Shown here one piece after another: positions 3,466 through 21,919 of a DNA stretch of 23,523 nucleotides. The notes below the pieces were generated by a model. The model ran no database searches and had not been told where the DNA came from. It saw only the letters and a program-made list of their open reading frames with translations. Every line of letters begins with the position of its first letter. Within the stretch, counting starts at the first letter, position 1. Both the position numbers and the translations under genes were made by a program. The DNA is taken from positions 1 to 23,523 of IMG/VR virus record IMGVR_UViG_3300029267_002679; one strand, given 5' to 3'. Source of the DNA: a virus.

Positions 3466-3520
3466 GTAGTTTGAGCGCCATCGAGCGCCGCATAAAATCT
3501 TCCACTAAGTGAGCTTCACG

Positions 3521-3579
3521 AAAGCCTGGATAGGAAACAGTTCCACCTCCACTGTTTCCTGTGCAGGCTTTTTTATTTT
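3521..3579 (+). terminator. Strong rho-independent terminator before the portal gene
   Basis: A stem of about 21 pairs with a single mismatch joins 3521-3541 to 3551-3571; the arms include AAAGCCTG/CAGGCTTT and GGAAACAGT/ACTGTTTCC. The nine-base loop is TCCACCTCC. The T-rich tract TTTTTTATTTT follows. It ends eight bases before the portal ATG, so it should stop Com-like transcripts. Head genes would then need read-through, antitermination, or transcription arriving from upstream in a modified complex. A GTG-started extension of the portal frame at 3509 runs through this hairpin and is not believed. Confidence 0.85.
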
Positions 3580-3586
3580 GGGGACC

Positions 3587-5329: not shown

Positions 5330-6734
5330 CCGACTGGCCAGCAAAGTCATTAACACGCCGCTGATGATCCTGCCGGATAAGCTGGATGTGATCCTGGGAG
5401 TGATTGGAGAGCGGATTGGCGTGGAGGACGTGGAGCTTGCGACTCTCGGGTACGAAGCGACCGGGCGCAAGGAACTGGACGTTCCGAAGGCGATCAGTGT
5501 GGTGAAAGTCCATGGGTCGTTGGTGAACCGGACCCACGGGTTGGATGCCATGAGCGGGCTTCAGTCTTACGATGACATCCGGAACGAGTTTAGAGCCGCA
5601 CTTGCTGCGGACACCGATGCCATTCTGTTGGACATTGATTCTCCCGGTGGGGAAGCGTCTGGTGTGATGGACTTGTCGGATGAGATTTATGAAGCGCGAG
5701 GGGAAAAGCCCATCTACGCCAGTGCCAATGAGAGTGCGTTCTCGGCGGCCTACGCCATTGCGTCAGCGGCAGACAAAATCTTTCTCTCCAGAACCGGTCA
5801 TGTGGGGTCCATCGGCGTGATTGCCGTTCACAGGGACCAGAGTGAAGCGGATGCCAAAGCCGGGATGAAATACACCACGATCTACAAAGGGGAGAGAAAA
5901 GCCGACCTGAGTCCCCATGGGCCGTTGTCCGATGAAGCGAAGATGATGCTGGAAGAGGAAGTGGCGGATCATTACGACCTGTTCACGAAAACCGTTGCCC
6001 GGAACCGGGGTTTGAAGGTGGCCGAAGTTATAGCGACCCAAGCAGGTATGTTCATGGGCGAAAAGGCAATCCAACGGGGTCTTGCGGACGAAGTGGTTTC
6101 GTTCAGTGAGGTGCCGGGAAGAATATTGGAAGATTTAACCGCTAACTCGAATGAGGAGGACGTTGAAATGTCCACAAAACAAGTTGACACGAAATCCGAA
6201 GAAAAGGAGGTGAAAATCATGAATGCAGCGGAATTGCGAGAGAAGTATCCGGATCTGGTGGCGCAAATCGAAGGTTCTGTAACGGACCGGATGCGTGCTG
6301 AAATCAGTGAAAGAGAAGCTGTCATGGCTGAAAAAGAGGCCGAAACGACTGAGAAGATTCGCCGGTTGGAAAAAGCCGAAGCCATTCGTCAGGAAAAAGA
6401 CATCCTGGCCGATGCTGAGTCTATTTGGACCAAGACGCTCGCCAACAGCGACGTTCCGGTACGGCTTCACGACAAAGTGAAGACCATGGTGTCTCACGAA
6501 AAGTTTGTCCAGGAAGGAGTTCTGGATAAGACCGGGTTCTCCGATGCGGTGAAAGCCGAAGTGGAGGACTGGGAAAAACGTGGTGCCACATCGTCTGTGA
6601 TGGGGACCGGGTTTGCGTCCAGGGATGTTGAGGACGACGAAACCAAGAAAATGAAAGCTGACGCCGAGGCGGATGACGCCCTGGTTGACAGAATATTTGC
6701 CGCTTCCGGCGGTACGCGAAAGGAGGTGAAGTAA
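5310..6734 (+). CDS. S49-family capsid maturation protease with scaffold domain
   Basis: Cleaves prohead proteins; the C-terminal half acts as scaffold. Of 474 residues, about 60-270 are a ClpP/SppA-fold S49 peptidase: 'LLDIDSPGGEASGV' carries the oxyanion glycines, 'ESAFSAAYAIASAAD' carries the likely nucleophile Ser145, and 'GHVGSIGV' follows. Lys197 in 'GERKADLSPHG' is a candidate general base. Residues 290-474 are helical, charged and coiled-coil-like, as in lambda C/Nu3. The ATG at 5310 has AGGAGA upstream; an in-frame ATG at 5187 would add 41 Arg-rich residues inside portal coding sequence and is rejected. The stop precedes the next ATG by one base, and its last codons carry that gene's GGAGGTG. 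Confidence 0.9.
   Translation: MPKLNLSRLASKVINTPLMILPDKLDVILGVIGERIGVEDVELATLGYEATGRKELDVPKAISVVKVHGSLVNRTHGLDAMSGLQSYDDIRNEFRAALAADTDAILLDIDSPGGEASGVMDLSDEIYEARGEKPIYASANESAFSAAYAIASAADKIFLSRTGHVGSIGVIAVHRDQSEADAKAGMKYTTIYKGERKADLSPHGPLSDEAKMMLEEEVADHYDLFTKTVARNRGLKVAEVIATQAGMFMGEKAIQRGLADEVVSFSEVPGRILEDLTANSNEEDVEMSTKQVDTKSEEKEVKIMNAAELREKYPDLVAQIEGSVTDRMRAEISEREAVMAEKEAETTEKIRRLEKAEAIRQEKDILADAESIWTKTLANSDVPVRLHDKVKTMVSHEKFVQEGVLDKTGFSDAVKAEVEDWEKRGATSSVMGTGFASRDVEDDETKKMKADAEADDALVDRIFAASGGTRKEVK
6219..6734 (+). CDS. Nested in-frame scaffold protein (Nu3-like)
   Basis: An internal start at 6219 has the perfect Shine-Dalgarno GGAGGTG (6206-6212) six bases upstream and would give the C-terminal 171 residues of the protease frame as a separate helical, highly charged protein. 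A second in-frame ATG at 6168 with GAGGAGG (6153-6159) would give 188 residues. Two strong ribosome-binding sites inside an open frame are unlikely by chance. In lambda, gene Nu3 is made exactly this way inside gene C to supply excess scaffold. Scaffold function is inferred from that precedent; both starts may be used. Confidence 0.72.
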   Translation: MNAAELREKYPDLVAQIEGSVTDRMRAEISEREAVMAEKEAETTEKIRRLEKAEAIRQEKDILADAESIWTKTLANSDVPVRLHDKVKTMVSHEKFVQEGVLDKTGFSDAVKAEVEDWEKRGATSSVMGTGFASRDVEDDETKKMKADAEADDALVDRIFAASGGTRKEVK

Positions 6735-6735
6735 C

Positions 6736-7422
6736 ATGCCTTTAGGACAAACACCATATGTTTACCAGGGGGGTCAGGATGACCTGAAACGGTTGTTTTA
6801 CAGCGATCCTGACAAAGCCTTTGCGAGGGCGATTACCATCCCCGCAGGTTACGGCGTGATCAAAGCCGGTGCCATTATGGGGATCATCACGGAGAGTACG
6901 AACCGGGTGGGTCAGTATGTACCTTATACCGGGCTTGACGCGGTGGGGAATGTTGCTGCGGGTGTTGAGGACTTGTTCGGTGCCGCGTTTCTGGTGGCCG
7001 ATCCGTCCACAGGTTCAGACGGTTACGTGACCATGGACGACAGCTACAAGTTTGCGGTTGGCGACCACCTGGTTGCGGGCGACAGCGACCTGAGCAACAC
7101 GGACCTTGGTGCTATTACGGCCATTGACAGAACTACCTACACCCACATGGCGAAGATTACGGTAACGAATTCTTTTGGTTCGGAAACCATTGCCAAGGGT
7201 GCGGTCATTACCATCCAGAGCGCCACGGCATCGCCGTATGTGTGCGCTGCGGGTGTTTTGAAAGCGGCGGTTGATACCGGCGTGGGTGAGAACGCCAAAG
7301 GTGGTCAGGGTGTACTGGTGATCAAGAACGCCATGTTCTACTCGGACAATCTTTATAACTATAACGCGGATGTGGCGACAGACCTTGGTGGGACCGCCAG
7401 CACGCCGTACCTGATCATCTAA
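6736..7422 (+). CDS. Head decoration protein (gpD-like)
   Basis: Probably the capsid-stabilising trimeric decoration protein: 228 residues, immediately before the major capsid gene, in the lambda D position. It contains 'ITIPAGYGVIKAGAIMGI' near residues 34-51, the usual start of the decoration fold, then beta-rich, Gly/Ala/Asp-rich sequence. It is longer than lambda gpD (about 110 residues) and has a middle segment (about residues 95-160: 'KFAVGDHLVAGD', 'IAKGAVITIQ') that looks like an added beta domain. GGAGGTG at 6722-6728 precedes the ATG by seven bases, suggesting high expression. Confidence 0.75.
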   Translation: MPLGQTPYVYQGGQDDLKRLFYSDPDKAFARAITIPAGYGVIKAGAIMGIITESTNRVGQYVPYTGLDAVGNVAAGVEDLFGAAFLVADPSTGSDGYVTMDDSYKFAVGDHLVAGDSDLSNTDLGAITAIDRTTYTHMAKITVTNSFGSETIAKGAVITIQSATASPYVCAAGVLKAAVDTGVGENAKGGQGVLVIKNAMFYSDNLYNYNADVATDLGGTASTPYLII

Positions 7423-7440: not shown

Positions 7441-8667
7441 ATGCCTATTGGAATTAATGACGTATCAGCATTGAGGCTTACAGTTCTCAATAAGCTGGTC
7501 ACGAAGTACATGACGCCTCCCAACTTGATTCTCAGCCAGTTCTTTCCGGCTGTTAATTATGAGTCGGACAACATCGAGTGGGAATCCCAGATCGGAAGCA
7601 GGGGTTTAACCCCGTTCGCGGCTGAAGACGCCGAGTCTCCCGCCGTGGCCATTCCCGGTGTTGGGCAGAATTCAGCGCAAGCTGCGTTCTGGAAAGAACG
7701 AACCTTTTTTGGTTCATCCTTTCTGAACAACATTCGACAGGTGGGAACCGACCGCAAGTACCAGAGTGCGGAAAGGACCCTTGGGAACCAGGTGAGGAAC
7801 CTGAGCAACCGCAGTTACCGCAGGGAAGAGTGGATGCGGGCGCAGATGCTCTGTAACGACGGGTTCACGTATAAGGACAAAAACGGGGTGTATATCACTC
7901 TGGATTACGGAATTCCGGACGACAACAAGGTGTCTCTGGCCACTGATTATAAGTGGGATGAAGGGACCAAGCGTGACATTGTGCAGGACATTTATGCGGC
8001 CAAACTGGCAGTCAGTAACGCCAACGCCGGTGTTTTGAACAACGCCATCTTCACCAGTGAAGTGCTGAAGTACATGGTGTTTGACGATACCATTCAGACG
8101 CTTCTGCAAAAATCTTCGTTCGGTCAAGGCGACTTGTTCGCAAACCCAACGAGCGTTATTGGGAACCTGATTGGTATCGGGAATATGCACCTGTACGACG
8201 AGGCTTACCAGATTCGCGCATGGTTGACCACGGCTCTCAGTTCCGGTGCCGGACCCCATACTGTGTATGTGGATTCCACGGTTGACTTTGAAGTGGGTGG
8301 CACTCTGACGGTGTTGGATGTGTCCGCGAAAACAACCGAAACCTTAACCATTACAGCAGTCAACACCAATTCCGGAACCTTGACGGCGACCGGGACTCTT
8401 TCGTCCAGCTACAAGGCGACTGAGGATTATGTCTACATGACCAAGAAGTTTATACCCACCAATAAGTTCGTGATGTGGGCGGATAATGTTGACGGTGAAC
8501 CGATTGCTGAATTCATGAAAGCACCTCATGAGCTTGACAGGCGATGGGGCCAGCAGGTTGACCGTTGGGAAAAACGCGATCCTGATGGAATTTTTGTGCG
8601 GGTAGAGGATAAGGGCCTTCCGGTTCTGTATCATGAGGACGCGGTTTATCAACTGACGGTAGCCTAA
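7441..8667 (+). CDS. Major capsid protein (lambda gpE type)
   Basis: Main shell subunit, 408 residues, expected to adopt the HK97 fold. Position after the protease-scaffold and decoration genes, and elements such as 'LYDEAYQIR' (about 251-259) and 'KKFIPTNKFVMW' (about 335-346), fit the gpE family. Between these two, residues 262-335 form an extra Thr/Val/Gly-rich beta segment ('TVYVDSTVDFEVGG', 'TETLTITAV', 'SGTLTATGTL') that looks like an inserted domain. GGAGGTG at 7427-7433 lies seven bases before the ATG, as expected for the most abundant virion protein. Downstream genes are closely spaced. Confidence 0.9.
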   Translation: MPIGINDVSALRLTVLNKLVTKYMTPPNLILSQFFPAVNYESDNIEWESQIGSRGLTPFAAEDAESPAVAIPGVGQNSAQAAFWKERTFFGSSFLNNIRQVGTDRKYQSAERTLGNQVRNLSNRSYRREEWMRAQMLCNDGFTYKDKNGVYITLDYGIPDDNKVSLATDYKWDEGTKRDIVQDIYAAKLAVSNANAGVLNNAIFTSEVLKYMVFDDTIQTLLQKSSFGQGDLFANPTSVIGNLIGIGNMHLYDEAYQIRAWLTTALSSGAGPHTVYVDSTVDFEVGGTLTVLDVSAKTTETLTITAVNTNSGTLTATGTLSSSYKATEDYVYMTKKFIPTNKFVMWADNVDGEPIAEFMKAPHELDRRWGQQVDRWEKRDPDGIFVRVEDKGLPVLYHEDAVYQLTVA

Positions 8668-9168: not shown

Positions 9169-9528
9169 ATGAGGATCGAAGTTCTAGTGACATTGAAAGG
9201 ATCTAGCATCTGGCGAAAGGGGACAGTGTTTGACGACGCTGTTTCCCCGATCCCAGGTGATATTCTGAAAGAGGTTGGAGGTAGTGCCGTCAAAGTCATG
9301 GCCGAGAACCCATTTGCCGTGACGGAAACGAAAATCGAGACTGAAGAACCCGTTGTGGAAGAATCGCCATGGGGAGATTACCCATCGGATGAAGTACCGC
9401 AACAAGAGAAAACGTCTACCCGTCAACCCGAGGTGGTTGATGCAAAACAAAGTGTTTGTCAGGAATGCGGTTGGACCGGAAAAACGGAAGCCGCTTTGAA
9501 ACGTCATATGACGATTAAGCACAGGTAA
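9169..9528 (+). CDS. Head-module protein with C-terminal C2H2 zinc finger
   Basis: A 119-residue protein in three parts. Residues 1-45 ('MRIEVLVTLKGSSIWRKGTV...') look like a short beta-barrel found in small phage head-tail proteins. Residues 46-92 are acidic and Pro/Thr-rich, likely a flexible linker. Residues 96-118 carry a classic C2H2 finger: CxxC, twelve residues, H, four residues, H ('CQECGWTG...LKRHMTIKH'). Such fingers are rare in phage structural modules. GGAGG precedes the ATG. It lies between capsid and connector genes, so it could contact DNA at the neck or bind nucleic acid during packaging (inference). Confidence 0.8.
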   Translation: MRIEVLVTLKGSSIWRKGTVFDDAVSPIPGDILKEVGGSAVKVMAENPFAVTETKIETEEPVVEESPWGDYPSDEVPQQEKTSTRQPEVVDAKQSVCQECGWTGKTEAALKRHMTIKHR

Positions 9529-9989: not shown

Positions 9990-10616
9990 ATGAGTGTCGG
10001 TGACGATATAAAAGAAGCCATTGCTGACGTTGGATCAACTTATACCATTGTCAGGGATGCGGGAAACATATCGGGTGAGTACGGACTCTTGGAGTTTTCT
10101 TCCCAGGTTACAAAGCCCCTTACAATAGAGAGCTTTCGTCGGAGCACTGTTGGATATGATACCCAGGCCGTTACCGGCGATGTGGTCGAGTTTGACATCA
10201 TTGGCGAACGGTTTCTTGTCACAAACATGCTACCGGAGTTGTTTGAAAACGCCGTGGTTCAAAAAGAGGCAGTTCTGTATAAATGCAATGTTTCAAGCGG
10301 TGAGCTGATGCGTCCCAGTGGCGAAACGTGGGACGATCCGATGAATCAGTACCATAAAGAAACTGCGTGGGAAGTGATCAAAGACAACTGTGATGCCATG
10401 CAGGTGGCGGCGCTTTATGGAAACGATCTTGAAACGGAAAACGAACTGGCGCTTTTGGGATTACAGAAAGATGAGGTGTTGCTGCCTCATTCGGTTGGCG
10501 CTCAGGTGATGGACAGATGGCAACCGTACTCAGGTGAATATTACATGGTTGCTACGATTGAAACCAGGCGATACCCGGACGTTGACGTCCTGATTGTAGA
10601 AGAAGATCGAAGATAA
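9990..10616 (+). CDS. Probable neck or head-closure protein
   Basis: Not firmly recognised. The 208-residue protein has a beta-rich N-terminal part ('GDVVEFDIIGERFLVTNMLP', about residues 63-82), a short helical middle and a second beta segment at the C-terminus ('YYMVATIETRRYPDVDVLIV'). This resembles head-closure/stopper proteins that follow gp6-like connectors. It starts immediately after the preceding stop. It is the last head-module gene before the carbohydrate cassette; in related layouts tail-completion genes would follow directly, but here they resume only at 19138. Confidence 0.55.
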   Translation: MSVGDDIKEAIADVGSTYTIVRDAGNISGEYGLLEFSSQVTKPLTIESFRRSTVGYDTQAVTGDVVEFDIIGERFLVTNMLPELFENAVVQKEAVLYKCNVSSGELMRPSGETWDDPMNQYHKETAWEVIKDNCDAMQVAALYGNDLETENELALLGLQKDEVLLPHSVGAQVMDRWQPYSGEYYMVATIETRRYPDVDVLIVEEDRR

Positions 10617-10638: not shown

Positions 10639-12651
10639 ATGAAACGAGTATTATTCATTGGGGAAACCCCCATTGGCACAACTGGAAATTCGAACATGCT
10701 GGCAGCGATGCTGGATGACCTGGATCACGACAAATACCGGGCCTGCTGCTTTGTTGTCGGGAATGTGAACCCATCATCCGTGGCGTTTGATCCCTTGCCG
10801 TACACCTTGATCAACGGGTCGATTCCGGAGGATTACTGGGGCATGAACCGTCTTTTGTCTATCATTCAGGAAACCACCTTCGACTTCATGGTCATGGTCG
10901 GGATTGACTTTTGGCGGTATCTTCCCATCTGGCAGCATCTTCGGAACTTGCGGGACGCAAAGAAATTTAAATGGATTGCCATATTTCCATACGATCTCTG
11001 GTCTCTCGAAAAGTCTTGGTTGCCACACCTGAACGACCTGGACTTCCCGTGTGTGTACTCCCAGTACGGGTATGACATGCTCAAGGATCACGTTCCAAAA
11101 ATCCGTTATTACCGTCCCCGTCTGAACGGGTGGGAGCATTTCAAGCTTTTGGAGGGGGATGATCTGTTCAAGGCCCGTCAGGAGGTCTTCCCGAATGTCC
11201 CGATAGGCGCCAAGATATTTGGTTTTGTCGGGCAAAACCAGATTCGCAAGTCTCCCGAACGACTGGTTAAAGCGTTTTTTGAGGCGAAAAAGGACGTTCC
11301 GGAAGCCGTTCTCTACCTACACACCGACCTGAACGGGATTTACAACCTGAAGCAGATTGCCGGCATGTACGGTGCTCAGAGTGGTGATCTGGTGGCTAAA
11401 CAGCAGGGCGTGACCTATGCGAGGGATAAAATGCCGATGGTATACAATGCCATGGATTATTTGGTGAACTGTTCCATGCAGGAAGGGCTGTCATGGACAC
11501 CCATTGAAGCCATGCTCTGTGGAACGCCGGTGATCGGGTCTGATACAACGGCACAGACGGAACTGTTGAAAGACGCCGGGTATTTGGTCCCTTGTCGGGA
11601 TTTGGCTTTCGTCCCGATGTCGGGAAAGGGTGAAAACGTATCGGTTGAGTCAAAAGCATGTCGAGTGGAGGATATCCGAGACGCCATTATTCGGTGTGCT
11701 GAATCAGAAAAGCTGAACCAGGTAATGAGGCACAAGAGCGTTGAGTTCGCCAACGACTGGATCTCAAAGACGGATGATATCAACGACCTTTTAAACGACG
11801 CGTCCAAAAAAAGAAAGGTCAAAAAGATCGAAGCTGTTTTGTTCGCCCAGCACTCTTCAGCCGGTGACGTGCTCATGACAACCCAATGTTTTAAGGGAAT
11901 CAAAGAGCGTCACAAAGGGATGAAGCTGGTTTACATGACCCAGCGGCATTTTGCCGGGATCGTGGAAAACAACCCTTACCTGGATCAGGTGATCGAGTGG
12001 GATGAAAGCCTGATTAAGCAGTACCTTGTTCACTATAACCCGCACGGTGAAAAAATACTTCCGGGTGGATGGAACAACCTGGATGTGACCCTTTACAGCA
12101 TGTACCCGTATTTCTGTAATGTGGAATCGGATGAGCTGTTCATTGACCCGGTGGAACCGGAAGGGTTCTTGACGGACGGGAACTACCTTGTGGTTCATAC
12201 CACAGGCGGCAGCAAAGAGTACCGGGCCTACGCTCACATGAATCAGGTGATTAAGGGTTTGGATATCCCTGTGATTCAGCTGGGGGCCGCGTCTGACATT
12301 CGGTGCGGCGCGGATATTGACTTATGTGGAAAACTCTCATGGCGGGAGTCTGCCTGGGTGATGAAGCATGCAAAAGCAGCTGTTGTGGTTGACAGTTTTT
12401 TGAGCCACATGGCCGGTGCGGTGGGAACCGATGCAGTGGTGTTATACGGACCTGCACCTGCACGGGTAGTCCAACCCAGGATGCAGCACGGCGCCGAACT
12501 CATTAACCTGGAACCGGATATGTTGAAGGTGTGTGCGCCGTTGAGCCATTGCTGGAGCACACCGCAACGGGGAAAGGTGAAATGTCAGAGTCCGTGTATT
12601 AATTCAATCTCGCCTGTGACGGTGAGAAATGTTTTGGAGGGGTTGTTATGA
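10639..12651 (+). CDS. Two-domain glycosyltransferase (GT4-GT9 fusion)
   Basis: A 670-residue protein joining two GT-B fold transferases. Residues 1 to about 390 are GT4-like: 'EGLSWTPIEAMLCGTPVIG' has the E-x7-E signature (E282, E290) for binding the sugar nucleotide. After a Lys-rich linker ('KKRKVKKIE', 390-398), residues 399-670 are like GT9 heptosyltransferases: 'SSAGDVLMTTQ' near 406, 'VVHTTGGSKEYRA' near 518, and 'VVDSFLSHMAGAVG' (583-596). Four cysteines near the C-terminus (632, 638, 649, 653) may form a metal site. Two transferases in one chain suggest consecutive sugar additions. Donor and acceptor cannot be read. The 3' end overlaps the next gene by ATGA. Confidence 0.88.
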   Translation: MKRVLFIGETPIGTTGNSNMLAAMLDDLDHDKYRACCFVVGNVNPSSVAFDPLPYTLINGSIPEDYWGMNRLLSIIQETTFDFMVMVGIDFWRYLPIWQHLRNLRDAKKFKWIAIFPYDLWSLEKSWLPHLNDLDFPCVYSQYGYDMLKDHVPKIRYYRPRLNGWEHFKLLEGDDLFKARQEVFPNVPIGAKIFGFVGQNQIRKSPERLVKAFFEAKKDVPEAVLYLHTDLNGIYNLKQIAGMYGAQSGDLVAKQQGVTYARDKMPMVYNAMDYLVNCSMQEGLSWTPIEAMLCGTPVIGSDTTAQTELLKDAGYLVPCRDLAFVPMSGKGENVSVESKACRVEDIRDAIIRCAESEKLNQVMRHKSVEFANDWISKTDDINDLLNDASKKRKVKKIEAVLFAQHSSAGDVLMTTQCFKGIKERHKGMKLVYMTQRHFAGIVENNPYLDQVIEWDESLIKQYLVHYNPHGEKILPGGWNNLDVTLYSMYPYFCNVESDELFIDPVEPEGFLTDGNYLVVHTTGGSKEYRAYAHMNQVIKGLDIPVIQLGAASDIRCGADIDLCGKLSWRESAWVMKHAKAAVVVDSFLSHMAGAVGTDAVVLYGPAPARVVQPRMQHGAELINLEPDMLKVCAPLSHCWSTPQRGKVKCQSPCINSISPVTVRNVLEGLL

Positions 12652-13388
12652 TCATCGCAATGAAATGCCTCAATGAGGAGCGATCCGTCAAACCCGTGAT
12701 CGGTGACATCCACGACGAGCCCTGGGTGGATCGAATCATCGTCATAGACGGCTGTTCTTCGGACGATACGGTGATTGAGTTGAAAGAGTTCAAGAAAGTC
12801 GAAGTCTATCAGCACAAGTGGGAGAAATGGTTCCATGCTCAAGAAGTCATTCAGTCCAACATTCTGCTTCAGTATATTCCCATGGACGATATATTTTTTA
12901 TCCTGGACTTTGATGAACAATGCTCTCCTGAACTGAAATCCCTTCTGGCCGATATCGACAAAAACGGCATGGATGTGGACTGTGTGCATGTGTCTCGAAA
13001 GTCCTATGAACTGATGCGGTTCCCGGATTCACCCTTTGCCATTCCCGGAGAGGACGGGTTCTGGATTGTATCTCACCAGATCGGGCAATACCCGGATTAC
13101 CAGTTGCGGATCATTCGACGCAAGCTTGGTATGCACTGGGTCAATTCCCCGCACCACATTATGTTTGGGCTGAAAGAAGGCTTGTTCACCAGCAAAAACA
13201 TTCAGGCGGATATTATCCATTACCACGGCAAAGAGGATTCCCGATGTCGGGACAGTATTGAGCGACAGTGGCTCAGGAACCAGGCCAGGCGAAAGCACCT
13301 GGGGTTGGAAGCAGATGTGTTTGAGTGCGACCCGAAACCGGAAATCGCACATTACGCCATTCCGTCCTACTGGGAGGAGAACCGATGA
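12648..13388 (+). CDS. GT2-like glycosyltransferase
   Basis: A 246-residue GT-A fold enzyme. The N-terminus has 'KCLNEERSVKPVIGDI' and then 'VDRIIVIDGCSSDDTV' (about 27-42), the nucleotide-binding pattern of GT2. The metal-binding DxD is 'LDFDEQ' (D87, D89). The C-terminal part contains 'HHIMFG' and a His-rich 'IIHYHGKEDSR'. No membrane segment is seen, so it is likely soluble. The ATG overlaps the preceding stop (ATGA) with GGAGGGG upstream, and its own end overlaps the next gene in the same way, indicating coupled translation. Confidence 0.87.
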   Translation: MIIAMKCLNEERSVKPVIGDIHDEPWVDRIIVIDGCSSDDTVIELKEFKKVEVYQHKWEKWFHAQEVIQSNILLQYIPMDDIFFILDFDEQCSPELKSLLADIDKNGMDVDCVHVSRKSYELMRFPDSPFAIPGEDGFWIVSHQIGQYPDYQLRIIRRKLGMHWVNSPHHIMFGLKEGLFTSKNIQADIIHYHGKEDSRCRDSIERQWLRNQARRKHLGLEADVFECDPKPEIAHYAIPSYWEENR

Positions 13389-13999
13389 ACTACGTCATAG
13401 GTGACAGCCACGTTTCCATCTTCTCAGGGCAAGACCATATCTCGGAAGGGTTTCCCAATATCCACGGGGATCTGCTACCGAACTTCAGGACGGGAAACGT
13501 ATCTGCTTATCTGGCATACAACTTCGGTCAGCCTGAACACCCGGTTACGGTTACGGTGGACAAGTACCTTTCAAAAATACCGGAAGGTTCAACGGTTATT
13601 TTCAGCTTTGGTGAGATCGACTGCCGGTGTCATGTGATGAAACAACCTGGGCCTAAGTGTCAAGTGGTCCAAGATATCGTCAACAGGTACACGACTGGGC
13701 TTGAGACGTATATGGATCGATTTGAGGTGTACGCCTTGTTGCCGCACGTCATTAAGCTGAAACCGGATGACGATATCGATTCTGCCGTGGGAACATGGCT
13801 GGATATCACGGCGGCAGGCATGCTCTTTAACGCCTACATGAGATTCTGGAGTGATGACAGGTGCTTGTCGGTGTTCGACTGGGCATACAATTACGAGATT
13901 TTTGAGCAGCATGAGTATTACCAGGACGATACACACTTGAGTCAGAAGGCGCTGCCTTTTGTGCTTTCCGAATGCCAGAGTAGGGGGATTGAAATATGA
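13385..13999 (+). CDS. SGNH/GDSL-hydrolase-like protein
   Basis: A 204-residue protein with SGNH-fold signatures: block I 'YVIGDSHVS' (Ser8 as nucleophile), a block III-like 'FSFGEIDCR' (73-81), and block V 'DDTHLS' giving the Asp181-xx-His184 pair. Such enzymes commonly act as esterases; in sugar clusters some add or remove acetyl groups. The 'GEIDCR' form recurs in sugar-pathway relatives. The ATG at 13385 has GGAGGAGA upstream and overlaps the previous stop; a longer frame from 13325 would overlap the previous gene by 64 bases and is rejected. The substrate is unknown. Confidence 0.75.
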   Translation: MNYVIGDSHVSIFSGQDHISEGFPNIHGDLLPNFRTGNVSAYLAYNFGQPEHPVTVTVDKYLSKIPEGSTVIFSFGEIDCRCHVMKQPGPKCQVVQDIVNRYTTGLETYMDRFEVYALLPHVIKLKPDDDIDSAVGTWLDITAAGMLFNAYMRFWSDDRCLSVFDWAYNYEIFEQHEYYQDDTHLSQKALPFVLSECQSRGIEI

Positions 14000-14259
14000 C
14001 CATTTATTTTTGCAAACAATGTGGCCGAACGGGGCGGTTCAACGAAAAGCCGAACCACTGTTACTTTTGTCATATCGATCATATTGAAAATGTCAGCGAT
14101 GAGGATGCGGTGCGGATGGGTGTCAATATCCCCGATGGTTCACCCTATGAGTTCCCGGGGGATGTGCGGTTCCACCCGATGTCGGGAGAGCCGGTGTCGC
14201 CATTCGATGGGTATACACTGAGACAGTTTCAGAGGGACATGATGGAGAGGGTCCTATGA
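13996..14259 (+). CDS. Small zinc-ribbon protein
   Basis: An 87-residue protein beginning with a rubredoxin-like zinc knuckle pair: Cys6-x2-Cys9, twelve residues, Cys22-x2-Cys25, followed by His26 and His29. The remainder is acidic and ends in a short helix ('YTLRQFQRDMMERVL'). No enzyme motif is visible. It overlaps both neighbours by ATGA, so it is co-translated with the sugar enzymes and may act as a partner or adaptor for one of them (inference). Confidence 0.8.
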   Translation: MTIYFCKQCGRTGRFNEKPNHCYFCHIDHIENVSDEDAVRMGVNIPDGSPYEFPGDVRFHPMSGEPVSPFDGYTLRQFQRDMMERVL

Positions 14260-15107
14260 TCAGTCTCGTTATCAATCTCGATACCAGACCCGGTTTTATG
14301 GAAGAAGAAACCGTCCAAGGCACCATGATGAACGGCACCCGTTCTCTGGACTTCTTTACGGACGGGGTTCTGAATAAGATCCGGTTTTTTGAAGGCCATG
14401 ATCTGGAGACCACGGTCTTTATCGACGTTCACGAACGGCTGCCGAGGGATATCGAAACATGGCTACTGGATCGGCAGGCTGAAGGGACCATAGACAACCT
14501 GGTGCTCAACAAACATACGGAACAGTTCTTGGGGGAGCCGTTCCAGAAGTGGAATGATCTGAACTTTTTAAACGCCATGACCATTTCCAGGGGCGACATT
14601 CTGGTTCATTTTGACGGAGACATGAACGCCTTTATCAATGACCCGTCAGTGATCCATGAATGGCTGCAATGGTTGGATGAAGGCAAGTATCAGTATATCT
14701 CATACCCAAGCGCCTACTCACCCGCACCTGTTATTGACCCACGGTTCGAAAATTACTGGTGGGCCAGCACCCGTTTTTTTATGACAACCAGGGATATGTG
14801 CTCACCCGGCGTGTCAGACTGGCTGGAGATTGTAGCCTGTCTGAGGAGTTCAGAGTACCTGTACAAGCAATACGGCGATGACGACGATCCGAGGAACCCG
14901 TGGCTGGAGCATATTCTTGGTTTGATGTCAGCTGGAAAGCATGCGGTGTTTTACCCGCCTATGCAACCACAACGATACCTGATGTTCTCATGGTCCCATT
15001 ACTATTCAGGCGTCTTAAAGCAACTCAATTCATGGCCCTATAAGCGGGTCTTGGAGTATGTGGACCACATTTCATACCCATGCGATGTGGCCGGGAGAAA
15101 AATATGA
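14256..15107 (+). CDS. GT-A-like glycosyltransferase, family unclear
   Basis: A 283-residue protein with 'ISRGDILVHFDGDMNAF' (about 110-125), a DxD motif (D120, D122) placed as in GT-A transferases, preceded by a beta-alpha pattern ('TTVFIDVHERL'). The N-terminus 'MISLVINLDTRPGF' resembles the first strand of the fold but lacks the usual NE start of GT2. The C-terminal half is rich in Trp and Tyr, which often line sugar-binding surfaces. It overlaps the previous gene by ATGA and the HNH gene by ATGA. Glycosyltransferase activity is likely but not certain. Confidence 0.65.
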   Translation: MISLVINLDTRPGFMEEETVQGTMMNGTRSLDFFTDGVLNKIRFFEGHDLETTVFIDVHERLPRDIETWLLDRQAEGTIDNLVLNKHTEQFLGEPFQKWNDLNFLNAMTISRGDILVHFDGDMNAFINDPSVIHEWLQWLDEGKYQYISYPSAYSPAPVIDPRFENYWWASTRFFMTTRDMCSPGVSDWLEIVACLRSSEYLYKQYGDDDDPRNPWLEHILGLMSAGKHAVFYPPMQPQRYLMFSWSHYYSGVLKQLNSWPYKRVLEYVDHISYPCDVAGRKI

Positions 15108-15793
15108 AGATTTGCATCAAGTGTGGTGAGGAGAAACCCTTAACCGATTTTTATAAATCAAAACAAAACAAAGACGGCTATGTTGGGATGTGCAAGTCTT
15201 GCCACTCAGAAAAAACAAGAAGATACTACATGAGCCACAAGGACTCGATGAAAGTTAAGATGGCCGAATATAGGCGAAACAATCGAGAAACTATTTTGGC
15301 AAAAAAGAAGGAATATTACCAAAAAAATAAGTCCTCGCACTACGAGCGAGTAAAAATATTTGAGAAAAACAATCCAGAAAAAGTTGCCGAATATAGAAGG
15401 ATAAGCCGAAAGCGCAACAGGGAGCACAATAAAAACAATTTGAAGTGGAGGCTATCCCAGAGGATGGGGACAGCCTTGTGGAAGTCCTTGGCGATGAAGG
15501 GTGGGAGGTCATGGAAAAAACTGGTTGGCTATACGGTAGATGACCTTGCCAAACATTTAAAACGCACCATGCCTGAAGGTTTTACATGGGAAGACTTTTT
15601 AAATGGGGACCTACATATAGACCATAAAATACCAAATGCCGTTTTTAATTATGAAACACCTGAAGATATTGACTTTGCAAAATGTTGGTGCCTAAGCAAT
15701 TTACAGTTATTGCCTGCTCATGAAAATAGGGTGAAAAATGCCAAAATTGACTCACCATTTCAACCGTCATTAGCATTCGGAGGATCTTTATGA
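15104..15793 (+). CDS. HNH endonuclease, likely mobile insertion
   Basis: A 229-residue nuclease. The N-terminus holds a zinc site (Cys4, Cys7, Cys30, Cys33), followed by a long basic helical region and a C-terminal HNH domain: 'LHIDHKIP' (H171, D173, H174), 'LSNLQLLP' (N199) and 'HENRVKN' (N208). The gene is clearly AT-richer than its surroundings: positions 15301-15360 have 18 of 60 G+C, versus 33 of 60 at 14461-14520. This marks recent acquisition. It nevertheless overlaps both neighbours by ATGA, so the operon stays coupled. A freestanding homing endonuclease is the best reading. ATG 15104 is chosen for the overlap; an in-frame start at 15080 would only lengthen it. Confidence 0.88.
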   Translation: MKICIKCGEEKPLTDFYKSKQNKDGYVGMCKSCHSEKTRRYYMSHKDSMKVKMAEYRRNNRETILAKKKEYYQKNKSSHYERVKIFEKNNPEKVAEYRRISRKRNREHNKNNLKWRLSQRMGTALWKSLAMKGGRSWKKLVGYTVDDLAKHLKRTMPEGFTWEDFLNGDLHIDHKIPNAVFNYETPEDIDFAKCWCLSNLQLLPAHENRVKNAKIDSPFQPSLAFGGSL

Positions 15794-16872
15794 AGCGACT
15801 TACCATATTCATGACTAATAATGTATTCCCCGTATCAAAATCAATGAGCTACGGAGGAGAGCGCATCGTTCTATACTTGGTTGAGGAGTTAGCAAAACGG
15901 CATGATGTTTATTGTTTTATGCGAGATGGATCTGATTTTACCGGAATCCCCATCAAAGAATATATACCCGTTGAGCCTATGAATGACCAATATGATGTTC
16001 ATTTTAAAGCCGCAGTGAAATATTCTTTAACAACCGGCATCGAACCGGACGTTTATTTTTGTGGATACTTTGGGAAAGGAAATCCGGATGTTTTCGAGCT
16101 ATGGCCCTATGCCGAGCTTACATGGTGCAAATGGACGCATGCAAAATACGAGTTTCCGGTAAATCCGTTCAATATCATCTCCTATTCGAATTTACTTCAA
16201 GAGGACCTATTGGGTGACGGGGTTCCCAGCACCAAAATCTATTACGGTTTGCCTGAAAACCTGTATCAGTTCCAACCTGACAAGGAAAATTATGCCTGCT
16301 GGATCGGAAAGCTGGAAGGCGGCAAAGCCCCAAGGACTGGTATAGAGCTTGCGAAAGCCGCTGGATTGAAAATTGTTGTCATGGGACCGCCCTATAACTC
16401 TGGCACTTTCTGGAATGAAGTTGCCCCCTACATAGACGATAAGGATGTGTTCTGGGTTCGCGGTGTAGACGATGCCATGAAGTACGAAATAATGAGTAAG
16501 GCCAAGTGTTTGCTTTATACGAACAATTCAACGTGGCGCGAGCATGCGGGGATTATCATGCTTGAAGCAATGGCCATGGGGACCCCAGTCGTCGGGATGA
16601 GCATGACCCAAAAACCATGTTCCGTTGAAACGGATCAGTTTATTAAGGATGGAGTCAATGGTTTTGTGCTTCATTATTCCTCTGATAATTTGGATGAAAT
16701 CATTGACACAGGCGTTCCATTGATTAACCAGGTTCACACCATCGATCCAAAAGACTGTCGAGACCAGTTCGAAAGCCGTTTTACGGCGGAATTGATGGCC
16801 AGGCGGTATGAGTGGTTCTTTGACAAGATAAAGGACGGAAGCCGGTTCGGTTCCGTGGAGGTGCCGTTTTGA
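15790..16872 (+). CDS. GT4-like glycosyltransferase
   Basis: A 360-residue GT-B enzyme. The N-terminal 'FPVSKSMSYGGERIVLYLVE' (about 13-32) is the acceptor-side glycine region of GT4 enzymes; the C-terminal domain has 'EHAGIIMLEAMAMGTPVVG', the E-x7-E donor-binding signature. Length is normal for the family and no membrane segment is seen. GGAGG precedes the ATG, which overlaps the HNH stop. The 5' part is AT-richer than the cassette average (15961-16020 has 23 of 60 G+C), so part of it may have come in with the HNH gene or been converted with it. Sugar specificity is unknown. Confidence 0.85.
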   Translation: MKRLTIFMTNNVFPVSKSMSYGGERIVLYLVEELAKRHDVYCFMRDGSDFTGIPIKEYIPVEPMNDQYDVHFKAAVKYSLTTGIEPDVYFCGYFGKGNPDVFELWPYAELTWCKWTHAKYEFPVNPFNIISYSNLLQEDLLGDGVPSTKIYYGLPENLYQFQPDKENYACWIGKLEGGKAPRTGIELAKAAGLKIVVMGPPYNSGTFWNEVAPYIDDKDVFWVRGVDDAMKYEIMSKAKCLLYTNNSTWREHAGIIMLEAMAMGTPVVGMSMTQKPCSVETDQFIKDGVNGFVLHYSSDNLDEIIDTGVPLINQVHTIDPKDCRDQFESRFTAELMARRYEWFFDKIKDGSRFGSVEVPF

Positions 16873-17582
16873 TTTACAACCTGTATCTCAAGAACAGCAA
16901 AAACATTGGCGATGCGATGGCGTCTCCGCTGGATTACTTTAAGTTCCCATGCGAAGTCAAAAAGGTTGCCGTGGACGATTACGATCCGGATGAGCTGCGG
17001 GGAAAATTTATCATTTACGGCGGCGGCGGTCTGATCCACCTACCATCCCCGGATTACAACCACGGAGTCATGCAGTACCTTGAGGACTTATGTGAACTAT
17101 CCCCGTGGCTGGTATCCTGGGGTGTCGGGCATAACGTCCATGGCATGAACACAATTGCCTACCCTGAGTCGTTTATTAATAAGTTCCGGCTGCATGGGGT
17201 GCGAGATATGGGGACCGTTTTGCCGTGGGTGCCGTGCGCCAGTTGCATGAGTCCTTTGTTGAAAAGGCGAGGGGTTAAAAGGGATGAGTGCTTTGTTGGG
17301 CATGGCGATTCCATGGGGATGAACGGTATGCGCCACACAAGCGCTGATATTGTCTATCTAATAGACATGATCGCAAGCACAAAGGTTGTCCATACTGATT
17401 CCTATCATGGCGCTTATTGGGCCATGCTCCTGGGTCGGGAAGTCGTTTATCACAACAAAAAATCAAGCAAGTTCTTTGCCATGCCGAAACCGGCGAAAGG
17501 ACTTCTTGCCAAATGCCGAAAGGCCAATCGGGACCACCACAAGAAGGTCCTGAAACTTTTGGAGGTGTACCTTGAAGCCTGA
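16869..17582 (+). CDS. Polysaccharide pyruvyl transferase-like protein
   Basis: A 237-residue protein with the fold pattern of the CsaB/polysaccharide pyruvyl transferase family: N-terminal 'LKNSKNIGDAMAS', then 'IIYGGGGLIH' (about 48-57), 'WLVSWGVGHN' and a C-terminal 'VVHTDSYHGAYWAMLLG' (about 172-188) matching the conserved S-x-x-H-G region. Family members transfer pyruvate from PEP to a sugar, giving an acidic ketal. It is shorter than many members (often 300 or more residues), so activity is less sure. Start is TTG overlapping the previous stop (TTGA), with GGAGGTG five bases upstream. Confidence 0.7.
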   Translation: MIYNLYLKNSKNIGDAMASPLDYFKFPCEVKKVAVDDYDPDELRGKFIIYGGGGLIHLPSPDYNHGVMQYLEDLCELSPWLVSWGVGHNVHGMNTIAYPESFINKFRLHGVRDMGTVLPWVPCASCMSPLLKRRGVKRDECFVGHGDSMGMNGMRHTSADIVYLIDMIASTKVVHTDSYHGAYWAMLLGREVVYHNKKSSKFFAMPKPAKGLLAKCRKANRDHHKKVLKLLEVYLEA

Positions 17583-18777
17583 TATCACACTGATATTTCC
17601 GCAAAGCCCGTTCTTGTTGGACCAGGCCGTATTTCCACCGCTTGGGATATTGTACCTGTCTGCCTACCTGAAGCAACACGGGGTGTCGGTGCAATGCCTG
17701 GACCTGGGCATCGGTCATACACCGGACATGGCTGAAGCGGATATTATCGGGATATCCTTCACCACACCACAACGGGATGAAGCGTTCAAACTTGCGAAAC
17801 AGTTTAATATGGAAGGCCGAAAGGTCATTGCGGGGGGACCCCATGCCACCCACATGCCGCAAGAGTGCCTGCGCCGTGGGTTTACCCATGTCGCCTGTAA
17901 ATACGGTGAGAACCCGTTAATGAAGTTCATGGAGCAGTTGCTTGGGCGGAAGCTTGACTTCAATCTTCGGCCTGAGATTGATGATTACCCATTCCCGGAC
18001 AGGGACGCTCTGCCAATCCAACAGTATCATTACCTGGTGGACAATGAGCCGGCCACACCAATCATGACAAGCCGTGGCTGTCCGTATAATTGCTCGTTCT
18101 GCGGCAAGATAGACAATCAGTTCAAGATGCAGTCTGCCGAGAGAACGGTTGCGGAGATTGAGCATATCCATGAAACGTATGGCTATAAGGCGTTCATGAT
18201 ATTTGATGACGTGTTCGTGGCCAGCAAGAAACGGCTGGAAAAGATTGTCGAGCTAATTGGTGGGAAATACAAGTTCCGGTGCTTTGCCAGGAGCAACCTT
18301 TTAGATGATCGTACCTGTGAGTTGTTGAGACAGATGGGGGATGTTGAGGTGGGTATCGGGATCGAAAGCGGTTCCACGGAGATCCTTAAAAGGAATATGA
18401 AGGGTACCACAAGGGAGCAGAACACGAATGCCGTGAAACGGTTGCATGACCACGGGATTCGCGCCAAGGCGTTCTTAATTGTCGGGTTGCCGGGTGAACG
18501 GATAGATACCCTCATGGAAACGGTAGATTGGATATACGAGGCGGAACCGGATGATCTGGACATCTCAGTTTTTCAACCCATGCCTGGGTCTAAGATATTT
18601 GCTAATCCTGAAAAATGGGGGATTCAGTTTGAGTACAATGGAAAACCGGGGTGGTACAAGGGAACGCCTGGGGATTACAAACCCATGGCCAGAACGGAAC
18701 ATTTGTCCGGTATGGAAATATTACAATGGCGTGACGAGTTGGAAACGGAGTTTAAAAACCCGGAGTTGCTGCGATGA
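17572..18777 (+). CDS. B12-binding-domain radical SAM enzyme (BchE-like family)
   Basis: A 401-residue enzyme. Residues 1-120 form a cobalamin-binding Rossmann-like domain ('PPLGILYLSAYLKQHG', 'ADIIGISFTTPQ', 'KVIAGGPHATHMP'). Residues 160-380 form a radical SAM domain with Cys170-x3-Cys174-x2-Cys177 ('RGCPYNCSFCGK') for the 4Fe-4S cluster and the later 'EVGIGIESGS' and 'AFLIVGLPGE' motifs typical of this group. Members do methylations, cyclisations or other C-H chemistry, generally without oxygen. In this context it may methylate or rearrange a sugar or lipid (inference). Start is TTG with GGAGGTG four bases upstream; the gene overlaps its neighbours on both sides. Confidence 0.9.
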   Translation: MKPDITLIFPQSPFLLDQAVFPPLGILYLSAYLKQHGVSVQCLDLGIGHTPDMAEADIIGISFTTPQRDEAFKLAKQFNMEGRKVIAGGPHATHMPQECLRRGFTHVACKYGENPLMKFMEQLLGRKLDFNLRPEIDDYPFPDRDALPIQQYHYLVDNEPATPIMTSRGCPYNCSFCGKIDNQFKMQSAERTVAEIEHIHETYGYKAFMIFDDVFVASKKRLEKIVELIGGKYKFRCFARSNLLDDRTCELLRQMGDVEVGIGIESGSTEILKRNMKGTTREQNTNAVKRLHDHGIRAKAFLIVGLPGERIDTLMETVDWIYEAEPDDLDISVFQPMPGSKIFANPEKWGIQFEYNGKPGWYKGTPGDYKPMARTEHLSGMEILQWRDELETEFKNPELLR

Positions 18778-19151
18778 TGACGCTTTTTGTAGTGAACGGT
18801 TGTGCAGACCCAAAAGACGAACGGGAAACCGTCGATTCCTTCGGTGCTCTGGCCTCTGAGGTCCACCGTGTTGCGAGTTTAGACGAAATCAATAGTACGG
18901 ATAGGGGAGACTGGTACGGCGTTGTATACGACGATGAAATGATCGATGAGCGGTTGAAGGAAGGGTTAAAAGTTTTTTTGAAAGAGTCGAATGCGGATGT
19001 GCTGATTCTTTTTAAGACGGACGGCAAAACCGCTTCCCATTCGCCACGGATATTCAGGCGACATATTACGCTAAGAGACGGGTCTCTCATGCCGGAGCAG
19101 GAAGTGCGGTTCGAGAAGGTTTTAAACGGGTGGGTCCATGATAAAGCTTGA
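18774..19151 (+). CDS. Uncharacterised protein closing the carbohydrate cassette
   Basis: A 125-residue soluble protein, not recognised. The C-terminal half ('ADVLILFKTDGKT', 'SPRIFRRHITLRDGSL') vaguely recalls the end of GT-A glycosyltransferases, where an 'R-x-F-R' segment follows the metal site, so it could be a reduced or partial transferase, but no DxD is seen. It starts at ATG 18774 within the overlapping ATGATGA at the end of the radical SAM gene (18777 is an alternative) and overlaps the first tail gene by 14 bases. It thus forms the physical seam between sugar and tail genes. Confidence 0.65.
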   Translation: MMTLFVVNGCADPKDERETVDSFGALASEVHRVASLDEINSTDRGDWYGVVYDDEMIDERLKEGLKVFLKESNADVLILFKTDGKTASHSPRIFRRHITLRDGSLMPEQEVRFEKVLNGWVHDKA

Positions 19152-19653
19152 AGTGAAAGAGTCCGACAAAAAACGACTGTTCAATGCGTTGGCCAGGATT
19201 CGCCAAACCATTGAAACACAAGGGAAGGACACCATGCAGTTTAAGTGTGCCGTGGACTACTATCAGCTGGTCATGGAAAACATTCAGAAGCGAACTCACC
19301 CAAGCCCACCGTACAGCAAGCGGTATCGAAACTGGAAGTATGAGTATGGCTGGGTGGGGTATCCTTCTCCGTGGAAGCTCCGGGGTGATCTTGTGAAATC
19401 TCTGGGGGCACACCGCTTCGGTGATGGGTATCTGGGCGGCGTTCAGCCTGGAGCAATGGATTCAGGCGGGAAGAGTTGGTTCGGTAAAGGCAAGTCAGGC
19501 CCGAAGGGACCACCCAAGTCCATTGAGATGTACGGACGGGTTGAGGAACACCGCCGGCCTGTATTTGAACCCACCATGAAAGAGTACGCCAAGGACGGAT
19601 GGCAGAAGCGGGGCGAAGAAATGAAAAAACGCATAAAGGCGGACTGGCGATGA
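19138..19653 (+). CDS. Tail completion protein (HK97 gp10/minor tail Z-like)
   Basis: A 171-residue basic protein. The N-terminal helix is followed by 'WKLRGDLVKSLGAH' (about 79-92) and a C-terminal 'EEHRRPVFEPTMKEYAKDGW' (about 136-155). The 'RP-x-F-x-P' element near the end is characteristic of gp10-like proteins that complete the tail-head interface. Position just before the tail terminator and tube genes fits this. It begins inside the previous gene (14-base overlap), with TTTAAACGGG as a weak upstream sequence, so coupling to the cassette is likely. Confidence 0.6.
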   Translation: MIKLEVKESDKKRLFNALARIRQTIETQGKDTMQFKCAVDYYQLVMENIQKRTHPSPPYSKRYRNWKYEYGWVGYPSPWKLRGDLVKSLGAHRFGDGYLGGVQPGAMDSGGKSWFGKGKSGPKGPPKSIEMYGRVEEHRRPVFEPTMKEYAKDGWQKRGEEMKKRIKADWR

Positions 19654-20816: not shown

Positions 20817-21401
20817 ATGGCTCGACAAGGACCCGTAACCAAAGACACTTCCACCGTTGCAATCGGTTTGATGCAGATTCGTGTTGGTACATCCAGTACC
20901 TACATTGCACAACCGGGTGCGGCACTCACCTCCAGTGACTCTATCGGGGCACTGGCAAACACCAAATTCGTGGGGAACACCGACTGGTACAAGCTGGAAT
21001 CCGGCTTTCCCCTGATCGAGGACTACACGGTTCCGATCCGTGAAGGCGCGGCCCTTGAATGTGCGTTCAGGGAGATCACCCCGTACAATATGGCGCTGGC
21101 CAACGGGATTGATCCCGCGAGCGATTACGACGAAGCCCATTCCGGAGAGATTGTGCTGGGTGGTCGTACCGCGCCGGATTACCTGCGGGTTGAAGGTGTT
21201 TACACCTACCCCAACGGCAGCAACACCATGACGTTCATTTTTCCGAGAGCGCAGGTGTCCGCAAATGTGGAAACGGACTTCACCACTGAGGATTCTGCGG
21301 CTGTGACCGTAACCTTTGAGTCCAAGAACGCTTCCAGCGACGTCTCCGGCGGAAACGCCATTTGGGACGATAAACCGCTGGGTCGTATTGCCTGGGCGTA
21401 A
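20817..21401 (+). CDS. Major tail tube protein
   Basis: Forms the hexameric rings of the tail tube. The 194-residue protein is beta-rich with 'GNTDWYKLESGFPLIEDYTV' (about 53-72), 'ALECAFREIT', and a strand-rich end ('TMTFIFPRAQVS', 'AAVTVTFES'), consistent with tail tube proteins. It precedes the frameshifted chaperones and tape measure gene, the standard order. GGAGA precedes the ATG. The 104 bases before it (20713-20816) hold only two short inverted repeats and no convincing promoter. A hairpin follows the gene. Confidence 0.82.
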   Translation: MARQGPVTKDTSTVAIGLMQIRVGTSSTYIAQPGAALTSSDSIGALANTKFVGNTDWYKLESGFPLIEDYTVPIREGAALECAFREITPYNMALANGIDPASDYDEAHSGEIVLGGRTAPDYLRVEGVYTYPNGSNTMTFIFPRAQVSANVETDFTTEDSAAVTVTFESKNASSDVSGGNAIWDDKPLGRIAWA

Positions 21402-21414
21402 ACCCTAGATAAAT

Positions 21415-21439
21415 CGTGCTGGGGACTGGCCCCGGCACG
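21415..21439 (+). terminator. Strong hairpin after the tail tube gene, no T-run
   Basis: CGTGCTGGGG (21415-21424) pairs with CCCCGGCACG (21430-21439) over a five-base loop, ten pairs including one G-T. It is followed by AAAATAAGG rather than Ts, so it is not a standard intrinsic terminator. It sits just after the tail tube stop and may reduce downstream transcription or protect the abundant upstream mRNA from 3' decay. Confidence 0.45.
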
Positions 21440-21457
21440 AAAATAAGGAGAAAGACT

Positions 21458-21919
21458 ATGCCGGAAGAACAAGCAAGGTTGAATCCACAAATTACGGATG
21501 TCGAGATCGGTATCCGTAATTTACGGAAAATCACGATTTACCCGCTTTCCATGGCGGACCAGTTGACGTTGACCGAGATGGTGACGAAATCGGCACAGGC
21601 CCAGATAGAGGCAGGCGGTGGTGATGTGGCCGTTGTCTCTTTCATTGTCAAGATGCTTCAGGAGAACCTGAGTAAAATCCTGACCATGGTTACGGAAGAA
21701 GACGAATCCGTACTGAACGATCTGAGTAACACGCAGGCCGTTGAAATTGCGGACGTCATTTTTGATGTGAACTATGGGTCGGTTGCAAAAAACTTCAAAA
21801 GCCTCTCCGAGAAAGTGAAGGAACTGTTTCAATCGGAGAGGCCGTCACAACCGTCTGCGAACGATACGCCTACCGCCTTGACGACTTCTACCGAAAGTCC
21901 TACCGAGACGGCGGCGTAA
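21458..21919 (+). CDS. Tail assembly chaperone (gpG-like)
   Basis: Helical 153-residue protein that should coat the tape measure protein before tube assembly. It has an acidic, hydrophobic core ('LTMVTEEDESVLNDLS', 'QAVEIADVIFDVNYG') and a low-complexity Ser/Thr/Pro tail. AAGGAG precedes the ATG; a longer frame from 21416 would start in the upstream hairpin and is rejected. A slippery A_AAA_AAC at 21787-21793 would shift ribosomes into the next frame and make the longer G-T product, as in lambda. Position before the tape measure gene is diagnostic. Confidence 0.82.
   Translation: MPEEQARLNPQITDVEIGIRNLRKITIYPLSMADQLTLTEMVTKSAQAQIEAGGGDVAVVSFIVKMLQENLSKILTMVTEEDESVLNDLSNTQAVEIADVIFDVNYGSVAKNFKSLSEKVKELFQSERPSQPSANDTPTALTTSTESPTETAA
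21787..21793 (+). promoter_or_regulatory. Slippery heptamer A_AAA_AAC for -1 frameshifting
   Basis: The chaperone codons GCA AAA AAC place the heptamer AAAAAAC exactly in X_XXY_YYZ register. A -1 slip moves into the frame that stays open from 21766 to 22200. It lies 41 codons before the gpG-like stop. No obvious stimulatory pseudoknot was worked out. Confidence 0.6.

Follow-up and report, generated by a model that had tools for sequence, protein, structure and literature searches.

A conserved frame of glycosyltransferase-like genes with an exchangeable interior in the virion operon of uncultivated tailed phages

INTRODUCTION

Bacterial O-antigen and capsule loci have conserved flanks and a swappable interior of sugar-nucleotide, glycosyltransferase (GT) and tailoring genes. 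Cluster O mycobacteriophages carry an O-methyltransferase gene and glycosyltransferase genes between their portal and protease genes (PMC4351075), and glycans are present on the capsids and tail tubes of mycobacteriophages (Freeman 2023, as cited in PMC12619734). In pelagimyophages, a hypervariable region rich in glycosyltransferase genes adjoins a neck gene (PMC7029224). The glycan variants of PBCV-1 are antigenic classes, and the mimivirus clusters are clade-specific (PMC9614988). Here we describe a locus of ten genes, lettered A to J in order, at 10639-19151 of the uncultivated virus record IMGVR_UViG_3300029267_002679. The whole 23.5-kb stretch of this record that was analysed (23,523 nucleotides) is called the window below. 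Genes A and J are a constant frame, bracketing variable glycan-building and tailoring genes within the virion operon. The locus is probably a phage-encoded virion-glycosylation system, made of this conserved frame and a swappable (polymorphic) cassette, for which we infer an activity, an acceptor and a benefit.

GENES A AND J FRAME THE LOCUS

Relatives of the window were collected by a capsid-protein scan, which gave 36, and with profiles of A and J, which gave 61 and 34 loci, respectively; A lineages were counted at 95% identity after near-duplicates had been dropped (n = 34). Gene A (10639-12651; + strand, as are all the genes of the locus and its two neighbours) encodes a GT4-GT9 fusion glycosyltransferase and is the 5′ anchor. 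It belongs to both families, with profiles over their cut-offs (PF13692, 1.4e-11; PF00534, 6.5e-11; PF01075, 6.3e-8) and with active-site motifs that hold across 12 relatives, the GT9-type AGDVL and D-S-x3-H-x-A-G being invariant and the GT4 EGLSWTP conserved. Its profile matches in the PDB include the chlorovirus glycosyltransferase B736L and heptosyltransferases. The arrangement recurs in related phages, across the 34 A lineages, and A is present in 19 of the 19 capsid-matched relatives with at least 3.2 kb of sequence beyond the capsid gene. An initial annotation of the window had considered that the gene set might prove a host-derived random insertion absent from every relative, which these counts refute.

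In 33 of the 34 lineages the first recognised gene upstream of A is the neck gene; in the remaining one the piece starts at A itself. The spacing is mostly within 100 bp, reaching 200-655 bp in three lineages. In the window this constant upstream neighbour (9990-10616), a neck-position or head-completion gene, has no profile match. Nor has the first tail-module gene (19138-19653), the constant downstream neighbour, found in the same order in relatives; both labels are putative and rest on position between the proven head module and the tail module. As a separate observation, A appears in one relative (L109, 7497-9310) as two overlapping pieces, either through a frameshift or as a natural split within the GT4 part.

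Gene J (18774-19151), the 3′ anchor, encodes a GT-A-like protein of 125 amino acids and lies downstream in most loci that reach far enough, as the last gene before the tail gene. The initial annotation had it as an unknown. It now has a candidate fold, small and GT-A-like: its AlphaFold2 (AF2) model has a predicted local distance difference test score (pLDDT) of 82, and the best fold matches, all weak, are to GT-A-type proteins including the PBCV-1 capsid glycosyltransferase and IspD.

The distance from A to J varies widely. It is shortest in L064 and L113 (51 bp) and in L106 (53 bp), amounts to about 0.8-0.9 kb in L101-L104 and to 2.3-2.8 kb in L112, L097 and L013, and is at most 11.7 kb (L045). 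Since a gap of 51 bp holds no insert, the minimal form of the locus is A and J alone. L064 and L113 lie on a contig from a bacterial genome collection that is binned as Melioribacter roseus, a host link that rests on binning. We did not adopt this bacterium as host: the binning is a hint only, and the 19 kb examined beyond the minimal locus looks phage-like throughout.

THE INTERIOR IS EXCHANGED AMONG RELATIVES

The census of interior genes covered 27 loci, two of which (L055 and L060) are nearly the same phage, and counted 185 called genes, with 51 families of at least 120 amino acids, of which 20 occur in a single locus. A locus has up to 16 exchangeable genes. Families without relatives in the window, as named by Pfam, include many S-adenosylmethionine (SAM) methyltransferases, a GDP-mannose dehydratase/epimerase, a DegT aminotransferase with a GNAT acetyltransferase, GT8, additional GT2 and GT1-like transferases, a hexapeptide acyltransferase, LicD, a carbamoyltransferase, a sulfotransferase-like protein and SPASM radical SAM proteins. 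The interior is the content of an O-antigen cluster minus its membrane parts.

Exchange of the interior is seen when close relatives are compared. The neck, A, J and tail genes of L049 are 82-90% identical to those of L002, but the two interiors have next to nothing in common: that of L049 is 2.8 kb with a GIY-YIG nuclease gene, B and a methyltransferase gene, while L002 has epimerase, GT4, pyruvyl transferase-like and radical SAM genes in 6.4 kb. Over 15 kb, identity between L055 and L060 is about 100% save for a 658-bp deletion that takes most of a GT2 gene, a difference that may instead stem from assembly. The window and L008 have an identity of 92-96% through the head genes, 79% around the neck gene and 64-69% in A. 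The window, L016, L018, L030 and L049 have free-standing HNH or GIY-YIG nuclease genes within the cassette or next to it, and homing nucleases are a plausible driver of the exchange.

SELECTION AND CO-DIVERGENCE

The genes of the locus are kept by purifying selection. In closer pairs, read where synonymous sites are unsaturated, A, B, D, E, I and J have omega values of about 0.05-0.25, similar to those of the neck and capsid genes. One divergent pair of J genes stands at 0.43, and for C and G every value is from a pair with synonymous divergence (dS) above 2. Divergence of A correlates with that of the neck gene (rho 0.75), J (0.75) and B (0.85), part of which close linkage alone could yield. 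Distances in A are uncorrelated with those in the major tail protein, perhaps from mixing of divergent tail proteins.

GENES OF THE WINDOW

The locus runs from the neck-position gene to the tail gene as ten tightly packed, overlapping genes on one strand. The initial annotation had placed a carbohydrate-modification gene set here, and all of its open reading frames were found where it put them. Its overlapping junctions are also as described: 4 bases at A/B, B/C, C/D, D/E, E/F, F/G, G/H (with a TTG start for H) and I/J, 11 bases at H/I, and 14 bases between J and the tail gene (19138-19151). Its list of nine genes was one short, the tenth, F, having been missed or misread. Promoter-like sites are not more frequent in the window than in shuffles. 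Terminator-like sites are somewhat commoner (20 versus 11.5, sd 3.7), though they are weak and occur on both strands.

Several domain calls of that annotation stand over Pfam cut-offs. Besides the fusion in A, these are GT2 in gene B (12648-13388; PF00535, 3.7e-9), near-complete in 28 of the 34 lineages; GT4 in gene G (15790-16872; PF00534, 5.8e-10), a member of the variable cassette with an EX7E motif, found in 9 lineages; and the B12-binding and radical SAM domains of gene I (17572-18777), a cassette gene present in 13 of the 27 loci. Both domains of I score over cut-off (PF04055, 3.3e-22; PF02310, 1.4e-14) and the CX3CX2C motif is present as GCPYNCSFC; the nearest NCBIfam models are PhpK, HpnJ, ApyD and AprD4, each far below its cut-off. 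A B12 radical SAM protein of Streptomyces phage SF3 (30% identity) was considered as a relative of the system and set aside, as its gene adjoins a thymidylate kinase gene and lies near an integrase gene, outside the structural operon. The pyruvyl transferase call fell just under the threshold: gene H (16869-17582; cassette, 4 loci) scores 23.7 bits against a cut-off of 25.3 for PF04230 (5.4e-5), and we call it polysaccharide pyruvyl transferase-like.

The remaining cassette genes are named by motif and model. Gene C (13385-13999) has no match to Pfam or any other profile and no sequence match in the PDB; it is SGNH-hydrolase/acyltransferase-like, its SGNH-type motifs GDSH, GEID and DDTHLS being invariant in three homologues. 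Gene D (13996-14259) encodes a small putative zinc-ribbon protein with Cys motifs and a weak HNH match (0.035), and occurs in 9 lineages. Gene E (14256-15107; 11 lineages) has no profile match; in its HFDGDM motif H118, D120 and D122 (HxDxD) are invariant, and its model, which at a pLDDT of 58 was used for fold class only, gives Foldseek matches in the PDB to GT-A-type proteins at 1e-5. Sequence searches of the PDB with profiles of E, C and J gave nothing meaningful.

Gene F (15104-15793) is a free-standing HNH/endonuclease VII-like homing nuclease gene (phrog_1035, 6.8e-23) with an HNH-type sequence at 15614-15633. GC content drops to 0.40 at F, and a homologue stands at the same position in L018. 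F is a mobile nuclease outside the sugar pathway. Elsewhere, nucleases of the GIY-YIG/NUMOD3 type lie at 563-1072 of the window, just before the terminase gene, and at 12570-13412 in L016, 2602-3567 in L030 and 13366-14217 in L049; in these three relatives they lie close to the neck gene or follow A, giving the impression that homing nucleases gather about the glycan locus.

THE LINEAGE AND ITS SAMPLING

The head genes of the window are clear by profile (large terminase, protease and HK97-type major capsid protein), and a tail module downstream of the locus was shown through relatives, which have a major tail protein and a tape measure there. In the window the decoration protein is assigned to 6736-7422, the major capsid protein to 7441-8667 and the major tail protein to 20817-21401. 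INPHARED (50,697 phage records) holds no near-identical phage DNA. TerL, B and G of the window have no tblastn match in it, the major capsid protein has one partial match at 25% identity, and partial GT4 matches at 25-34% identity are the only sequence relation of the locus in that collection. Among isolated phages none has a match to the terminase, which means that culture has sampled essentially none of this lineage.

Two details of the head module stand apart from the locus. The portal (3509-5329) and protease (5187-6734) genes overlap by 143 bases in different frames, and the true protease start may be further downstream. The gene at 9169-9528 has a C-terminal C2H2-type zinc finger (CQECGWTGKTEAALKRHMTIKH) that is retained in relatives.

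WHERE THE GLYCAN WOULD GO

Marker genes were sought in 20 large records (26-92 kb), with 14 control genomes. The Wzx flippase (PF01943) was absent from the 20 records and detected in 13 of the 14 controls; GtrA (PF04138) was absent, with 7 controls positive; thymidylate synthase/dCMP hydroxymethylase (PF00303) was absent from these possibly incomplete records, with 9 controls positive. C5 DNA methylase was absent, with controls positive, and Tet_JBP dioxygenase gave no match in the records or in any control. The ten window proteins lack any transmembrane-like stretch. Three of 159 cassette proteins exceed the hydropathy threshold, none of them convincingly. Within the limits of incomplete records, the lack of a flippase, GtrA, hydroxymethylase and C5 methylase speaks against export to the host envelope and against classical DNA glucosylation. 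Integrase genes occur in 4 of the 20 records, elsewhere than the locus, which lies between head and tail genes, unlike seroconversion modules of the gtrABC type, placed beside an integrase gene or attachment site. No tail fibre was found among the annotated interior genes, several interior genes having no match. The location in the operon and the constant anchors speak for virion proteins as the target.

A search for Ser/Thr-rich tails as acceptor sites returned one case, the gene at 21416-21919, in the tail-assembly-chaperone position between the major tail protein and tape measure genes. Its Ser/Thr-rich end, with TTSTES recurring in relatives, is a possible acceptor or a mere linker, and we have not taken it as the acceptor.

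The initial annotation held that the products either decorate the virion or alter the host envelope. Decoration is the simplest reading; the host envelope no longer stands as an equal alternative, given that no flippase or GtrA was found in the 20 large records and no convincing membrane protein among the 159 cassette proteins. Remodelling of the host surface would have soluble transferases act late on the host lipopolysaccharide (LPS) core or on lipid-linked O-chain units, with export by host flippases and polymerases, and so stop superinfection or progeny re-adsorption. GT9, GT4, GT2, pyruvyl transferase, LicD, GDP-mannose dehydratase and DegT aminotransferase are typical of LPS and O-antigen synthesis, and the same reading has been proposed for pelagimyophage glycosyltransferases (PMC7029224). 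The constant anchors in a virion operon and the minimal form of A and J only do not fit it, and we consider it unlikely. Much the same position tells against hypermodification of DNA, in which sugars would be put on modified bases of the phage genome as a defence against restriction. Phage glycosyltransferases of other families do this, and radical SAM enzymes, carbamoyltransferase and methyltransferases could act on bases; however, neither thymidylate synthase/dCMP hydroxymethylase nor C5 DNA methylase was found in the 20 records of up to 92 kb, and both the late structural position and the sugar-nucleotide and O-antigen-type tailoring genes fit it poorly. This is the least probable of the readings, and we give it very little credence. 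An island of morons, in which homing endonucleases keep the head/tail junction open as a passive hot spot for insertion and the enzymes are functionally diverse and unrelated, would account for the nuclease genes in or beside the cassettes and for the many genes private to one locus. We nevertheless hold it to be quite improbable, as most of the named contents relate to glycans, A is present wherever the sequence reaches it, selection is purifying, and A, B and J co-diverge.

Several points weigh against virion glycosylation. GT9 enzymes classically act on the LPS core, and peripheral, flippase-free action on host lipid-linked glycans is possible. The fold match of J is weak, with no Foldseek E value below 0.001, and its DxD-like motif varies as DDE, DNE or SDE with E alone invariant. 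The phage collection has no close isolate, and the records are metagenomic fragments, which makes absences incomplete.

For the favoured virion-glycosylation system, the architecture, conservation, exchange and selection of the locus are demonstrated steps. The mechanism we propose is as follows. Late in infection and in the cytoplasm, A would use host sugar nucleotides to start or extend a short glycan attached to a virion protein. B, E and G would add more sugars, and C, H and I would modify the glycan, as might methyl-, acetyl-, carbamoyl- and sulfotransferases in relatives. J may be a partner of these enzymes or a final transferase tied to the acceptor. The interior would be replaced through recombination across the conserved anchors, perhaps aided by homing endonucleases in and around the locus. 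Phages would then differ in their surface glycans in a serotype-like way, the likely benefit being altered recognition, adsorption or stability of the particle. More tentatively, and with somewhat less than an even chance in our judgement, this may be a 'serotype locus', in which the fixed A/J pair belongs to the core assembly programme of a lineage of uncultivated tailed phages, and the chemistry of the virion glycan, sugar modification by radical-SAM/B12 enzymes included, depends on a cassette that strains exchange. In the open-licence literature we found no description of such modification of sugars for any virion.

If this holds, surface-glycan polymorphism would be a built-in, exchangeable trait of a tailed-phage lineage, as are bacterial O-serotypes and the clade glycans of giant viruses. 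The locus would offer a defined gene set for testing the role of a virion glycan in the phage (adsorption, shielding or stability). It would also be a source of enzymes that glycosylate proteins in the cytoplasm without a flippase and have unusual tailoring chemistry. A further lesson is that it cautions against automatic annotation of such clusters as LPS-modifying or DNA-modifying auxiliary genes.

COMPARISON WITH KNOWN SYSTEMS

The view, stated in the initial annotation, that phage glycosyltransferases usually sit away from late genes is outdated (PMC4351075, PMC12619734, PMC7029224 and the Microcystis phage Mae-JY09). As in the cluster O mycobacteriophages (Corndog group), whose O-methyltransferase and glycosyltransferase genes are proposed to modify the capsid (PMC4351075), the glycosyltransferase genes of the window lie inside the virion structural operon. 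Cluster O has few such genes, between portal and protease; here the position is between neck and tail, with two constant bracketing genes and many exchangeable ones. The host recognition cluster of pelagimyophages is likewise hypervariable, neck-adjacent and rich in glycosyltransferase genes, and radical SAM cassettes distinguish near relatives (PMC7029224). It belongs to T4-like phages, spans about 45 kb with tail fibres, and was read by its authors as modifying the host O-chain, whereas the present locus goes with an HK97-type capsid, has fixed A/J anchors and has no recognised tail fibre. Mae-JY09 has a GT4 (RfaG-like) gene between its major capsid and head-tail adaptor genes, with a single annotated glycosyltransferase, no visible cassette and membership of another phage lineage. 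That gene (L068, 8446-9630), being in an isolated phage, is a cultivable test case.

PBCV-1 and mimivirus share with this locus the principle that virus-encoded glycosyltransferases and methyltransferases build the virion glycan (PMC9614988). They are eukaryotic giant viruses and have no phage capsid/tail operon; J resembles domain 1 of A064R weakly by fold. Compared with bacterial O-antigen and capsule loci, the genes here stand in a phage late operon, and no flippase, polymerase or convincing membrane protein was found. Our search of the open-licence literature turned up no fixed A/J frame enclosing a swappable tailoring cassette in a phage lineage that lacks isolates. Virion glycosylation, glycosyltransferase genes in structural operons and hypervariable glycosyltransferase islands are already known; what is new is the pair of obligate anchors, A and J, with an O-antigen-like swappable interior between them.

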